37,656 nucleotides of DNA from Actinomycetes bacterium (GTDB lineage: Bacteria; Actinomycetota; Acidimicrobiia; Acidimicrobiales; RAAP-2): assembly GCA_021831125.1 (NCBI GenBank), contig JAKBNI010000012.1, forward strand, positions 1 through 37,656, written 5' to 3'. A program made the translations under genes and the position numbers. Below are positions 24,484 through 29,698 of this stretch, one piece after another. The notes beneath the pieces are model-generated. The model had not been told where the DNA came from. It searched no databases and saw nothing but the letters and a program-made list of their open reading frames with translations. How positions within the stretch are numbered: position 1 is the first letter of the stretch; each line of letters starts with the position of its first letter.

Positions 24484-24614
24484 GCCGACCGCGACCCCTC
24501 GGGCGCGTCGGGCTCCGCGCCGGGACCGGTCGAGCCCCCCGCGGGTGACCTAGGTCCCGTGACGGCGCGTGCGCGGGATCGGACAATTGGCTCGGGGACG
24601 AGCCGGAGGTCGAG

Positions 24615-25568
24615 ATGGCGGTGCGGGCGCCGGAGGAGTCGTGGGACCTCGAGGGCCACCTCGAGGCGTGGGTGCGCGAGGGGATCCTCGACGAGGAGCA
24701 GGCGCGACGCATCCTGGCGCGCGAGGCGCTCCCCGCCCCCGCCCCGCCTCGCCTGAGCGTCGGCGCGGAGCTGGCGGCGTACCTCGGGGTGGTCCTGGTG
24801 GTGGCCGGGGCCGGCGTCGTCACGAACCGGGTCTGGGGAGACATCGGTGTCGGGGGGCGCGTCGCGATCGGACTTCTCTCGGCGACGCTCGGCTTCGTCG
24901 GCGGGTGGCTGCTCTCGAGGGTGGGAGAGTCCGGCACCTCCCGTCTGGCGAGCTTCCTATGGCTCTGCGGCACGGCGGGCTCCGCCATGGTGACCGCCGT
25001 CCTCGTCGATCGCCTCGACCACGGTCGGGCCTGGCCGACGGTGCTGACGGTGGGAGCGGTGGTCGCGGCGGTCTCGCTCGGGTTGTGGCGCAACCGGGAG
25101 CGTCCTCTGCAGTTCGTCAGTGCCGTCGCGGGGGTCGTGATGGTCGTCGCCGGCGCGCTCAACGGCACCGGATGGGCCGTGCACCCCGTCGCGGCGGGGA
25201 CCGTGGTCTGGGCCGCGTCGGTCGCCCTCGCCGTCGGCGGGGCGACGGTCCTGCGGCCGGGGGTCGTCGCCGTCGTCCTCGCCCAGCTCGGCGCGACCTT
25301 CGGGGCGCTCCTCGTCACACCCGACCAGCACGCCCTTGGCCTGACCCTCGGGCTCGTCGCGGGCGCGGCGGGCCTCGGCTACGGCGTCGGGCGCCGCGAG
25401 CCCCCCGTCGTCGTGGTCGGGGTGCTCGCGTTCTTCTCGATGACCGTCCGTCTGCTCGGGCTCTACCTGCGCGGGCCGGCCGCGGCGCTGGTCTCGGTCC
25501 TGCTGGGAGTGGCCCTCGTCTCGGTGGCGCTGTGGCGGACCTGGGGCCGGCGCGCCCGGCCACACTGA
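24615..25568 (+). CDS. DUF2157 membrane protein
   Basis: The 317-residue product has the DUF2157 N-terminal signature, in which a short amphipathic stretch VREGILDEEQARRILARE precedes the membrane part, followed by about ten hydrophobic helices rich in Val, Ala and Gly. The family has no established function. GGAGG lies five bases before the ATG. It follows the GT2 gene by 131 bp on the same strand and could be read from the same promoter, but the gap contains no clear signal either way. Confidence 0.88.
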   Translation: MAVRAPEESWDLEGHLEAWVREGILDEEQARRILAREALPAPAPPRLSVGAELAAYLGVVLVVAGAGVVTNRVWGDIGVGGRVAIGLLSATLGFVGGWLLSRVGESGTSRLASFLWLCGTAGSAMVTAVLVDRLDHGRAWPTVLTVGAVVAAVSLGLWRNRERPLQFVSAVAGVVMVVAGALNGTGWAVHPVAAGTVVWAASVALAVGGATVLRPGVVAVVLAQLGATFGALLVTPDQHALGLTLGLVAGAAGLGYGVGRREPPVVVVGVLAFFSMTVRLLGLYLRGPAAALVSVLLGVALVSVALWRTWGRRARPH

Positions 25569-25751: not shown

Positions 25752-26510
25752 TCAGCTGCAGCGCAAGAACGCGGGCAGGTGACCGTACTGCTCGGCGTCG
25801 AGCAGGTGGTTGAACGCCAGGGTCACGTCGGGGTACGCCTTGACCAGGGCGACGTCCTTCGTGTACATCGCGATCAGCCCCGTCTCGACCGTGACCCCGA
25901 GCTGGCAGGCCGCCACGCGCGTCGTCGGCGAGGCCGCGCCGGTCGACGTGGCCGGCGGCACGGCGACGCCGTGGGCGCTCATGAGGGCGCTGAGCGTGGC
26001 GACGTGCTGCTGCTCACTGGGGGCGATGTTCGAGAACGGTGGGATCGCCCCGAGCTTCGCGAGGACGTTCTGGTAGGTCGCCAGCGCGTAGCGCTCCTGG
26101 CCGATCGCCTCGGTGAGGGCCGTGGTCAGGCTGGCGCTCGGTGGCGTGGCCGAGGTCGTCGTCGTGGTCGGCGCGACGGTGCGCAGCATCACCCGCAGCG
26201 CGACGCGCCACCGGGCGCGGAAGACGCCGGTCGTGGTGATGCTCTGGCCGGCGCGCAGCGCGCGGAACGTCGCGGTCTGGGCGTTCAGGGTGAAGCGCGT
26301 CTGGGCCGTCCAGAAGACCGGGTAGCGCACCGCGCCGACGAGGACGGTGAACTGGTGACCCGGGACGGTGACCGAGGTCACGGTCCCGGTCATCGTGAAC
26401 GTCTTCGCCGGCGGTCCGCCGGCCGAGGCCGCGCCCTCGCCCGCCACCGTCACCGCCGAGGCGATCAGGGCGAACGTCAGGACGATCGCTGTCGTTAGTC
26501 GTCGGGTCAT
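25752..26510 (-). CDS. secreted DUF2202-type ferritin-like protein with N-terminal beta domain
   Basis: The 252-residue protein has a signal peptide (about 1-30), a small beta-rich domain (36-110; TGTVTSVTVPGHQFTVLVG, OB-like in appearance), a Thr linker, and a C-terminal four-helix bundle typical of DUF2202. Candidate metal ligands are Glu139 in GQERYAL, Glu166 and His169 in SEQQH, Glu209 in TVETGL, and Glu240 and His244 in AEQYGH. Cys202 and Cys251 could pair outside the cell. The domain is ferritin-like, so a di-iron role is possible but unproven for this family. AGGAGG precedes the ATG. TAGCGT (minus, 26539-26544) is the likely -10 box, part of a mirror-image promoter pair with the 26687 gene. 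Confidence 0.86.
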   Translation of the reverse strand: MTRRLTTAIVLTFALIASAVTVAGEGAASAGGPPAKTFTMTGTVTSVTVPGHQFTVLVGAVRYPVFWTAQTRFTLNAQTATFRALRAGQSITTTGVFRARWRVALRVMLRTVAPTTTTTSATPPSASLTTALTEAIGQERYALATYQNVLAKLGAIPPFSNIAPSEQQHVATLSALMSAHGVAVPPATSTGAASPTTRVAACQLGVTVETGLIAMYTKDVALVKAYPDVTLAFNHLLDAEQYGHLPAFLRCS

Positions 26511-26537
26511 CGAGACCTCCTACTCGCTGTCGACCTC

Positions 26538-26649
26538 GACGCTACGGAGGCGCACGGCGGGTCCCTCGGGTCGAACGTCACAACGACGACGCGCGCGGTC
26601 GAGATGTGACGTTGCTCCCTGTAGCGGTGAAGGGCCCGTCCGTAGCGTC
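26538..26649. promoter_or_regulatory. mirror-image divergent promoters with shared upstream motif
   Basis: Read outward on each strand, both promoters have TGTGACGTT, then 25 bases, then the 11-mer TCCGTAGCGTC containing the -10 box TAGCGT. Minus-strand copy: 26574-26582 and 26538-26548. Plus-strand copy: 26605-26613 and 26639-26649. Both inverted pairs share one centre (26593.5). The motif centres are 31 bp apart, about three helical turns. The positions suit an activator or dual regulator serving both genes. Confidence 0.7.
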
Positions 26650-26686
26650 CTCGAAAAGGGGAAGAGCGAGTGAAGAGAGGTTCGAC

Positions 26687-29600
26687 ATGAACACGTGGAC
26701 TCCCCACCGGCGTCGCGGCAGCGTGACCACGCGACACGCGACTCGGCTCGCCGTCGTGGCGGCGATGGCGCTCGGCGGCCTGGAGGCGCTCGGCTCCTCG
26801 CCGGCCGCCGCCGTGTCGAGCCAGCTGAGTTGGACGACGGTCGCCAACAGCGCGACGGTCGTGCCCGGCTCGGCCCAGACCTTCAACAGCTTCAGCCAGC
26901 CCTCGGTCAACACCAGTGGGACGGTCGTCTTCCGTGCGCGCACCACCGGCCCCCAGACGCCACTGCGCGGGGTCTACGAGGGCGACACCTCCGGCTCGGG
27001 ACCGATCACCACGGTCGCCCAGACGGACAACGTCGTCCCCGACCCCAACAACTCGGGCGGCACGTTCAACGAGTTCCCGTCCTTCGCGCGGATCGCGGTG
27101 TCGGGCTCGATGGTCGCTACGCGCGGCCAGTCGACCCCGGTGTGGACCTACCAGGTCAACGGCACCGACACCAAGGTGGGCACGAGCGGCGTCTACGCCA
27201 CCCCGGGTGGGGCCCTCACGACCGGGGCGTCGATGCTCGGTGTGGATCCCGCCGAGTCGCTCTACGCGGTGCCCGGCGCGCCGGCCAACACCAAGTTCGA
27301 CCAGTTCCCCGGGGCGCCCGCCGTCGACGGCACCACGATCGCCTTCAAGGGCAACTACACCGTGGGCACCACCTCGGCGACCGGCGTCTTCTACCGGGAC
27401 CTCTCCTCGCCGACCCAGCCCACCGAGCTGATCGCCAACACCTCGACGGTCATCCCGGGCCAGCCCGGTGGTGGCACCGTCCCCTTCGGCGCGACGGCTC
27501 CGCCGAGCGCCGCCAACGGTGAGGTCGTCTTCACCGGCTGGGACAACGAGGACGCCCCCACGATCGGTGGGATCTACATGGCGCCCGAGTCGCCCTCGCC
27601 GACGATCACCCCGCTCGTGCGCATCGGCGACCCGGTGCCGGGTCAGACGTCCGGCGAGACCTTCACCAACTTCGGCGAGGGCCTCTCCTTCGACGGACGC
27701 TACGTGGCCTTCTGGGGCTCGTGGGGCTCGGCGACGCGCACGATCAACCTCGCGTGCGTCACCGACGGCAACGCGGCGCTCCTCGCCTACTGCAACTCGG
27801 TCTACCCCAACGGCTACACGACGACCGTCCCGGTGAACCAGGGCATCTTCGTCTACGACACCCAGGACCACACGCCCTACCCGGTCGCCGTGACCGACGC
27901 GCGCTTCCAGGACTTCCTCTTCTGGACCTTCGCCGGGAGCCCCCCGGGCGTGGGTGGCGGCACCGACCCGACCAGGGAGCCCCCGCACTGGCGCGCGGCC
28001 GCCTTTGTCGCGGTCTCGGGTGACCCGAGCGGCGGCTTCCAGGTCGCCTACAAGGGCGCGGCGACCGACGGGGACACGGGGATCTACCTCAGCCAGGGGC
28101 CGAGCGTCCCACGGACCATCGTCGTGGTGAAGACCTCGGACGTCGCCACCTCGATCGACGCCGCCGCGCCGGCCGGCGCGGCGGTGACGAGCGTCGCACT
28201 CGAGCGCGACGGCTTCCGGGGTCGGTGGCTGACCCTCAGCCTGTCGATGCTCGACCCGGTGACCTCGGCCGGTTGGGCCGGCGTCTACGCGACGAGCGTC
28301 CCGACGTCCCTCGCCCAGGAGTCCCAGACGCTCACGAAAGGGCCGCTGCCCTCGGCGTACGTCTCGGACACCTACGACCTCGACGTCACGAGCTCGTCGG
28401 ACCTCCCGGTGACCTACACGCTCGACCCCGCCACGACGAACGGGTCGTGCTCACTCACGGGCTCGACCCTGACGTTCTCCGCCGTGGGCACCTGCGTGGT
28501 CGACGCGGACCAGGCGGGTGACGCGAGCTACGCCGCGGCCCCGACACTCACGATCACCCTGGACGTGACCCCTCACCCCCAGTCGATCTCGATGGCGCCG
28601 CTCACCACGGCCTACGTCGGCGACTCGGTGACCCTCGCGGCCACGAGCGACTCGGGCCTGCCGGTCGCCTACGCCCTGGGAGCGGGGACCGGCGAGGGGG
28701 TGTGCTCCCTCGCGGGCGCGACGGTCTCGTTCACGGGCGTGGGCACCTGTGAGATCGACCTCACCCAGGCGGGCAACGACGTCTACGCGCCGGCTCCCAT
28801 GGTCGTGGTCGACGTGGCCGTGGACGCCCCGCCGCCTTCGGGTGGCGGCGGCGGGGGCGGCGGCGGGGGCGGCGGCGGCGGACCCCAGGGCCAGGTGATC
28901 ACGGTCGTCTCGCCCCCGACCACCCAACGGGTGGGCGGCTCCATCGTGCTGAGCGCGACGGCGAGCTCGGGACTGCCCGTCACCTACGCGGTCGAGTCGG
29001 CCTCCGCGGGCGTCTGCACGCTCTCGGGGACCACCCTCACCTTCACGAGCGTGGGGACCTGCGTGGTCGACCTCAGCCAGCCCGGTGACTCCACCTACGC
29101 GGCGGCGCCGGACGTCCGCCAGTCGTTCGACGTCGTCGGTCTCGCCACGCGGATGACGCTCCGGCTCGCTCCGGCCCACCCGCGCTACGGACAGCGGGCC
29201 GTGGCCTCGGCCACGGTCTCGGTCCCCGGGTCGACTCCCGGAGGGTCGGTCCAGTTCTGGGTCGACGGCGACGCGCTCGGCCACCCGGTGAGAGTCTCGG
29301 GCTCGCGGGCCACGAGCGCCCCCCTGCGCACCGCGAGGGCCGCCCTGCTCGGGCCGGGTCGTCACGTCGTGCGCGCCACCTACACCCCAGCCGACCCCAC
29401 GCGCTACGCGCTGGCCAAGGCCACGGCCACCGTGCGGGTGACCCGGGCCACGACCCGGCTGCGCCTTGCGCTCGGACCGAGCACGGTGCGCGTCGTCGTC
29501 ACCCCGGCTGGCCCGAGTGCCGCGGTGCCCGCGGGGCGGGTGCGCCTGTCGATCGGGGGGCGTGTGGTCGGGCTGCTCACGCTCAAGGGCGGCGCGGCGA

Positions 29601-29698
29601 CGATGGGCGTCGCGGTGCCGAGCGGCGCCCGGGTCCAGGCGACCTACCTGGGTGACGCCCGCTACCTGGGCGTGACCGGGGCGGGCGTCCGCCACTGA
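26687..29698 (+). CDS. large secreted repeat protein with Ig-like domains
   Basis: The 1003-residue protein has a long signal peptide (about 1-42). Residues 45-530 form repeats of the tandem-repeat type with VPG-x-FxxF and GVY/GIY motifs (VVPGSAQTFNSF, VIPGQPGGGTVPF, PVPGQTSGETFTNF), probably a propeller. Residues 545-830 hold three Ig-like repeats, each with SxLPVxY, a Cys-S-L and a VGTCxxD line whose two cysteines should pair. A glycine run of 14 separates the second and third. Residues 825-1003 are two further Ig-like units (Big_3_5 type, GGSVQFWVDGD). It looks like an adhesin or matrix protein, but no ligand is known. GAAGAGAGG lies six bases before ATG 26687; the longer frame upstream runs through the promoter. 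A terminator-like hairpin follows. Confidence 0.87.
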   Translation: MNTWTPHRRRGSVTTRHATRLAVVAAMALGGLEALGSSPAAAVSSQLSWTTVANSATVVPGSAQTFNSFSQPSVNTSGTVVFRARTTGPQTPLRGVYEGDTSGSGPITTVAQTDNVVPDPNNSGGTFNEFPSFARIAVSGSMVATRGQSTPVWTYQVNGTDTKVGTSGVYATPGGALTTGASMLGVDPAESLYAVPGAPANTKFDQFPGAPAVDGTTIAFKGNYTVGTTSATGVFYRDLSSPTQPTELIANTSTVIPGQPGGGTVPFGATAPPSAANGEVVFTGWDNEDAPTIGGIYMAPESPSPTITPLVRIGDPVPGQTSGETFTNFGEGLSFDGRYVAFWGSWGSATRTINLACVTDGNAALLAYCNSVYPNGYTTTVPVNQGIFVYDTQDHTPYPVAVTDARFQDFLFWTFAGSPPGVGGGTDPTREPPHWRAAAFVAVSGDPSGGFQVAYKGAATDGDTGIYLSQGPSVPRTIVVVKTSDVATSIDAAAPAGAAVTSVALERDGFRGRWLTLSLSMLDPVTSAGWAGVYATSVPTSLAQESQTLTKGPLPSAYVSDTYDLDVTSSSDLPVTYTLDPATTNGSCSLTGSTLTFSAVGTCVVDADQAGDASYAAAPTLTITLDVTPHPQSISMAPLTTAYVGDSVTLAATSDSGLPVAYALGAGTGEGVCSLAGATVSFTGVGTCEIDLTQAGNDVYAPAPMVVVDVAVDAPPPSGGGGGGGGGGGGGGPQGQVITVVSPPTTQRVGGSIVLSATASSGLPVTYAVESASAGVCTLSGTTLTFTSVGTCVVDLSQPGDSTYAAAPDVRQSFDVVGLATRMTLRLAPAHPRYGQRAVASATVSVPGSTPGGSVQFWVDGDALGHPVRVSGSRATSAPLRTARAALLGPGRHVVRATYTPADPTRYALAKATATVRVTRATTRLRLALGPSTVRVVVTPAGPSAAVPAGRVRLSIGGRVVGLLTLKGGAATMGVAVPSGARVQATYLGDARYLGVTGAGVRH

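Follow-up and report, generated by a model that had tools for sequence, protein, structure and literature searches.

The window, a 37,656-nucleotide stretch of DNA from a bacterium known solely from assembled environmental DNA, carries two genes that point away from each other across a gap at 26511-26686. The reverse strand encodes a ferritin-like protein of 252 residues (25752..26510), which consists of a signal-like N-terminus (judged by eye), an OB-like domain and a DUF2202-like four-helix domain. The forward strand encodes a repeat protein of 1003 residues (26687..29698), which combines a signal-like start, likewise judged by eye, with DUF7453 and Ig-like (Big_3_5) repeats.

The structural model of the ferritin-like protein (mean pLDDT of 79.6) places helices at residues 126-153, 159-179, 198-223 and 227-251. 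Residues E139, E166, H169, E209 and H244 are invariant in its 18 homologues; the domain is modelled as a four-helix bundle with the metal residues E, ExxH, E and (E)xxH, of which the last-helix carboxylate varies. Structural similarity search revealed that the model of the four-helix domain is closest to bacterioferritin (E of 1.1e-4), and CusF is among the structural matches of the OB-like domain model. Pfam on the window protein alone gave nothing useful and no DUF2202 match, so the DUF2202-type assignment needed the homologues and the structure model: 12 of the 18 aligned homologues match DUF2202 (Pfam PF09968) at an E of 0.1 or better, the best at 7e-8. Compared to DUF2202 proteins, the ferritin-like protein shares the invariant E, ExxH, E and H and a bacterioferritin-like model, but has in addition an OB-like domain at its N-terminus that resembles CusF. 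In named records, the repeat protein has its relatives mainly among MAGs, labelled Actinomycetes, Acidobacteria, Proteobacteria and others. A search of a library of open-access papers returned no paper on DUF7453, none on DUF2202 with ferritin, none joining DosR and Acidimicrobi-, and one joining DosR and acid mine drainage.

Mirror repeat and probable DosR-type boxes in the gap

The gap contains two inverted pairs of repeats. The 9-mer TGTGACGTT stands at 26605-26613 on the forward strand and at 26574-26582 on the reverse strand, and the 11-mer TCCGTAGCGTC at 26639-26649 (forward) and 26538-26548 (reverse), with a single occurrence of each on either strand of the window. On each side, 25 bases separate the 9-mer from the 11-mer, and the two pairs share the centre 26593.5, an arrangement that the earlier note had located exactly; the two 9-mers start 31 bp apart, with 22 bases in between. 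When the mononucleotides of the 176-bp gap were shuffled 3000 times, two complementary arms of at least 8 bases on one centre never appeared, and the mirror repeat is therefore not a product of chance. Its common centre, by contrast, follows from the equal spacing in the two divergent promoters and hence adds no evidence.

In the genome of the window (G000; 139 contigs totalling 2.0 Mb, with a completeness of 87%), the composite pattern with a spacer of 24-26 bases occurs without mismatches at two places, both in this gap. Up to three mismatches added one extra place, directly upstream of an Hsp20 gene, and comparing this Hsp20 site with orthologous promoters led to the recognition of a fuller box. 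TGTGACGTT is the left half of the box GTGACSTTnnnCCCTA and not a complete site: the element described previously is real, but its right half CCC, three bases after TGTGACGTT, had been overlooked. The box is followed by 21 bases and a TAnnnT -10 element, and its register is that of the published OsdR and DevR(DosR) boxes. DosR is the low-oxygen dormancy regulator of the tuberculosis bacterium.

Both window boxes fit GTGACsTTnnnCCC[TG] over 16 bp and are followed by 21 bases and then by TAGCGT, with one mismatch each to box-N21-TANNNT. The box of the repeat-protein promoter, GTGACGTTGCTCCCTG (26606..26621, forward strand), has a matrix score of 22.0 and is paired with the -10 element at 26643..26648, whereas that of the ferritin-like gene promoter, GTGACGTTCGACCCGA (26566..26581, reverse strand), scores 27.2 and is paired with the -10 element at 26539..26544; each TAGCGT lies within a copy of TCCGTAGCGTC. 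If transcription starts 7 bases past TAGCGT, the box would be centred at about -42, i.e. at the -35 position. For the weight matrix, 22 sites of other genes served as the training set, and those of the gene pair were left out. Among 347,840 background positions of the own genome, from which overlapping loci, training sites and window sites had been dropped, two score at least 19, one at least 22 and none at least 25.

A possible third box, GTGACCTAGGTCCCGT, lies at 24545-24560 on the forward strand, 21 bases before GACAAT. It precedes the gene of a DUF2157 membrane protein (ATG at 24615), a neighbour of the ferritin-like gene, and its score of 9.4 is not significant alone.

Recurrence and conservation of the promoter layout

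The box-only pattern GTGACSTTSNVCCCKWG with up to two mismatches matches 158 places in the own genome, against 42 for the reversed control, and the repeat-side window box is absent from these places. For the 30 places with an accompanying locus, a TANNNT exactly 37 bases downstream of the initial G is present at all 3 boxes without mismatch, at 1 of the 7 with one and at none of the 20 with two. As six of the seven one-mismatch boxes are without a -10 element at this distance, the box alone is no clean marker. One two-mismatch box has TANNNT at 38; the protein encoded behind it has a signal-like start, and its look-alike in G033 likewise follows a site. With the -10 element included, the pattern box-N21-TANNNT with up to three mismatches occurs at 11 places in the own genome and at one in the reversed control; three of these have no mismatch, the window pair has one, a further place has two and five have three.

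The same layout recurs beyond this genome. Across 99 genomes of the genus, 60 sites with up to one mismatch were found in 34 genomes, and none in the control. The 198 relatives together have 453 composite sites with up to two mismatches, against 108 in the reversed control, with matches in 145 genomes; these relative-wide counts include coding false positives, such as the conserved coding sequence GTGACCTgCAGCCCTAC...GAGGCCAAGAT. A DosR orthologue at an E of 1e-40 or better is present in 143 of the 198 relatives, in which the sites outnumber the control by 392 to 67, compared to 61 to 41 in the other 55 (Mann-Whitney p of 1.5e-7, with relatedness ignored). Within the genus, a site occurs in 33 of the 85 genomes that have a DosR orthologue and in 1 of the 14 that lack it, namely G001. 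Four genomes without the orthologue still have 4-11 sites, namely G001 (8), G102 (7), G127 (11) and G188 (4), and their closest regulators are just 30-36% identical. G001 is a close relative with a 91%-complete assembly, in which the contig with the DosR orthologue may simply be missing; G102, G127 and G188 remain exceptions to the link between DosR and the sites.

The genes behind 35 sites, comprising 6 of 11 in the own genome and 29 of 55 in other genus genomes, were inspected, with gene starts assigned by a crude rule; at least two of the sites (L177 and L178) apparently fall inside coding regions, and at several the -10 element is poor or no clear gene follows. The five best own-genome sites, with zero or one mismatch, belong to a Gmad2-domain gene, a CxC ORF with a peroxiredoxin gene, an Hsp20 gene and the window pair. 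The first of these, behind a site without mismatch, adjoins a universal stress protein gene, another site without mismatch is followed by the 57-residue CxC ORF and then by the 1-Cys peroxiredoxin, and the third belongs to the Hsp20 gene. One of four further own-genome sites inspected lies upstream of an aldehyde dehydrogenase gene. Over all 35 sites, Hsp20 follows seven (five of them Pfam-checked), the CxC ORF with peroxiredoxin two, a SLAC1-family transporter two (one checked), a radical-SAM-like protein two (one checked, below the Pfam cut-off) and a BON protein one. A cation P-type ATPase and a nicotinate phosphoribosyltransferase follow one site each, both with an imperfect -10 element. 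Hsp20 and stress genes, as expected of a DosR regulon, are present among these targets, and the Hsp20, P-type ATPase and peroxiredoxin match hspX, ctpF and ahpC, all of which belong to the Mtb DosR list in the section of PMC4082495 cited here.

The 57-residue CxC ORF (MGCWCARR...) lies between the box and the peroxiredoxin gene in both G000 and G047 (L092 and L182).

The gene pair itself is conserved in the genus. The ferritin-like gene (at least 55% identity) was found in 12 genus genomes, and a repeat-protein match above 500 bits in 13. Both genes lie on one contig in 11 genomes, giving 12 loci, and are divergent in all 12; the pair is split over two contigs in G057, and the repeat-gene match of G004 reaches the contig end. 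At every genus locus with both sides on the contig the genes are adjacent, and none were seen apart. The repeats are conserved in most relatives with the pair: the ferritin-side box scores at least 19.3 in 10 of 13 loci, and the repeat-side box at least 11 in 8 of 12 testable loci, with 6.3 in G079 and the masked G020 excluded. In the matrix scan, G077, G066 and G048, all with a DosR orthologue, show no box on either side; these loci either lost the boxes or were always without them. The repeat gene of G058 has the promoter sequence AGGACTTTAGTCCCTA-N21-TACGGT, with a near-canonical DosR box that keeps both register and spacing.

The -10 element of the ferritin-like gene persists in the three box-less loci (L036, L037 and L038), and TCCGTAGCGTC in those of G077 and G066. 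G001 carries two copies of the divergent pair (on C28 and C115; L034 and L052), with boxes on both sides in each.

Seven loci have both boxes found in one scan, and the distance between the boxes is 25 bp in four of them (G000, G001 twice and G032), 118 bp in G031, 186 bp in G079 (a weak box) and 271 bp in G058. Each box is thus fixed to its own -10 element and not to the other box. The comparison of the gap across orthologous loci that the note had suggested therefore recovered boxes in most of them, but the 25-bp distance in four close copies alone, and the mirror layout was seen in this one small group alone.

The candidate regulator and the reading of the gap

The own genome has five GerE-domain matches, and the structure comparison covers the one on contig C56 (G000:C56:15379-16026). 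Its best PDB match is Mtb DevR (3c3w) with 243.8 bits, followed by VraR with 130.8 bits, and it shares 56% identity with DevR over 207 residues. Residues D8, D9, D54, T82, K104, K179, K182, N183, T198 and T205 are identical to those of DevR. The orthologue accordingly retains the phospho-acceptor aspartate as well as Lys179, Lys182 and Asn183, three residues that contact bases in DevR, as given in the cited part of PMC4082495.

The gene of a DosS-like kinase with GAF, HisKA_3 and HATPase domains, in which one GAF stretch was found, is transcribed divergently from dosR. The best matches of the GAF domain are DevS chains and the heme-GAF kinase chain 2vzw, the record of which is titled probable histidine kinase response regulator and which we take to be Mtb DosT; the HATPase domain is best matched by DosT (3zxq). 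The kinase keeps equivalents of the heme ligand His149 and of Tyr171. The heme-pocket residues 87 and 89, Glu and His in wild-type DevS according to the same part of PMC4082495, are replaced by Gly and Leu, and the aligned chain also has Gly at 87. Of the box scores in the dosR locus, the top eight all lie outside the stretch between dosR and the kinase gene.

Three box-like sites lie downstream of dosR (L102, 2497-2512, 2715-2730 and 2737-2752), two of them 22 bp apart, in a gap between a 101-residue ORF and a membrane-protein-like ORF that also holds a palindromic GGGACCCTCGTCCCTT. A perfect GGGACTTTAGTCCC lies upstream of another NarL-type response regulator gene (L056, about 2277-2290, in G000:C92), and no -10 element was seen at the usual distance from it. 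The DosR orthologues of the genus are of several kinds (98-100%, 75-79% and about 47-59% identical), and G008, G028, G038 and G039 have two DosR matches each.

We propose that the gap very probably consists of two DosR/DevR-type promoters placed back to back, which would turn on both genes together. The most likely regulator is the response regulator of the DosR/DevR-OsdR family on C56, and co-regulation of the two genes by one nameable factor appears well supported by the sequence evidence. The earlier prediction of two outward promoters, co-regulated by one factor just upstream of both -10 boxes, has gained support from the recurrence of the layout and the conserved boxes, whereas the statement that no regulator could be named has to be corrected. 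By analogy with DosR, the divergently transcribed GAF-domain kinase would sense the signal, either loss of O2 or NO/CO, and would phosphorylate the DosR orthologue. Dimers of DosR~P would then bind at the two boxes and bring RNA polymerase to both weak promoters, activation being the presumed direction of regulation. The ferritin-like and repeat-protein genes would be induced alongside Hsp20, the 1-Cys-peroxiredoxin operon and other genes.

The alternative that survives best, albeit with low probability, assumes that the reader of the box is not the DosR orthologue but a different NarL/LuxR-type protein encoded in the genome, or else an unrelated activator. The C56 protein is the one of five GerE-domain matches set against solved structures, and G001, G102, G127 and G188 have sites with no close DosR orthologue found. 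In addition, PolR of Microlunatus, reported to be 76% identical to DevR, is said in the cited portion of PMC6754071 to bind GTTCAC direct repeats, and thus homology alone does not fix the binding site. However, the register fits the DosR/OsdR boxes, the orthologous G058 promoter has a near-canonical box, the enrichment of sites tracks DosR presence, and the targets match hspX, ctpF and ahpC of Mtb.

We consider it improbable that the gap forms a single symmetric operator, in which one factor reads the whole mirror arrangement and switches both genes. The exact symmetry over 112 bp and the 25-bp box distance of the four close copies would suit such an operator, but box and -10 element stand singly before Hsp20, peroxiredoxin and other genes, the boxes are 118-271 bp apart in other orthologous loci, and the shared centre is forced by the equal spacing. 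A joint operator across both boxes is thus unlikely, and the meaning that the earlier note had attached to the exact symmetry and to the same face of the helix finds no support, as the geometry varies among the orthologous loci (25, 118, 186 and 271 bp).

Very little speaks for an alternative sigma factor that would use TGTGACGTT as the -35 and TAGCGT as the -10 element. The spacing between the two elements is fixed, as this would demand, but amounts to about 30 bp, far over the 16-19 bp that sigma factors span between -35 and -10, and both the conserved right half CCCTA and the DosR-box register would be left unexplained. Least credible of all is that two neighbouring promoters are alike by chance: the exact 9-mer and 11-mer mirror identity was not seen in relatives, and its exactness may be partly accidental, but the shuffles, the controlled recurrence through genome and genus and the conservation in orthologous loci argue strongly against it.

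Two further candidates were rejected. A CRP/FNR or Rex site was suggested by TGTGA, but inspection by eye showed no right half to match it at the expected distance, and the spacing is too long for an ECF sigma promoter.

Two DosR-type promoters back to back would turn an unexplained mirror repeat into a named regulatory circuit that is open to testing. The DosR/OsdR box, with its fixed box-21-(-10) layout and T-variant left half, would be extended to a genus of many small genomes, and searching with this layout could yield a catalogue of the regulon for genomes of organisms that cannot be cultured. DUF2202 ferritin-like and DUF7453 proteins, both of little-known families, would be tied to a dormancy-type regulon. 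The two proteins may plausibly act jointly outside the cell. A more tentative idea, which we regard as possible rather than probable, is a DosR response with a secreted arm, in which the ferritin-like di-metal protein with its CusF-like domain and the Ig-repeat surface protein might be exported upon loss of O2 and jointly bind or store metal.

Likeness to known DosR and OsdR promoters

DosR/DevR-OsdR boxes are imperfect palindromes of 16-20 bp with the halves GGGAC...GTCCC or GGGCC...GGCCC. The present box lies in register with them; its right half is CCCTA and its left half GnGAC, with T at position 2. This base is T in 18 of the 22 training sites, whereas DosR/OsdR boxes have G; a G-to-T change at position 3 of the OsdR site, which is the same base, lowers binding by about 50% (cited part of PMC5069765). 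The consensus is AGGGCCGATCGGCCCT for OsdR of Streptomyces coelicolor (PMC5069765, same part) and TTSGGGACTWWAGTCCCSAA for DosR (PMC2275270, part cited). Predicted OsdR sites include AGGGACCTTCGGCCCC at SCO0167 and SCO0216, and CGGGACCTTCGGCCCT lies in the SCO5978-SCO5979 gap, which is bound by OsdR in vitro (PMC5069765, same part). These OsdR boxes share the 16-bp register, and their main departure from the present consensus is a single base of the left half, whereas the OsdR consensus as given there is more symmetric than the present box. Moreover, OsdR also belongs to a kinase-regulator pair, and Table 1 of that source has divergent gaps with a shared site (PMC5069765, same part). Set against the OsdR consensus, the two window boxes agree at 10 and 9 of the 16 positions, levels reached by 0.7% and 2.5% of random window 16-mers. 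A consensus match alone is thus weak, and the identification rests on the register, the spacing, the recurrence, the regulator and the G058 site.

Close parallels to the gap are found in Mtb. The promoter-proximal Dev box overlaps the -35 position, and the divergent tgs1-Rv3131 pair is driven by two boxes (PMC3029386, section cited), while narK2 and Rv1738 share four boxes (PMC7018068, section cited). In both cases, as proposed here, divergent genes are co-induced via DevR boxes in the shared gap, according to the cited parts of PMC3029386, PMC7018068 and PMC2275270. The present gap differs in having one clear box per promoter, in the separation of the 9-mers by 22 bases instead of close packing, and in its targets, a ferritin-like protein and a repeat protein with signal-like starts. 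Several boxes per regulated region, bound cooperatively, are common but not universal in such promoters. Well-studied DevR promoters of Mtb carry two or more boxes each, compared to two in the whole gap here; by the portion of PMC2275270 cited, many units in the DosR Table 1 have a single motif.
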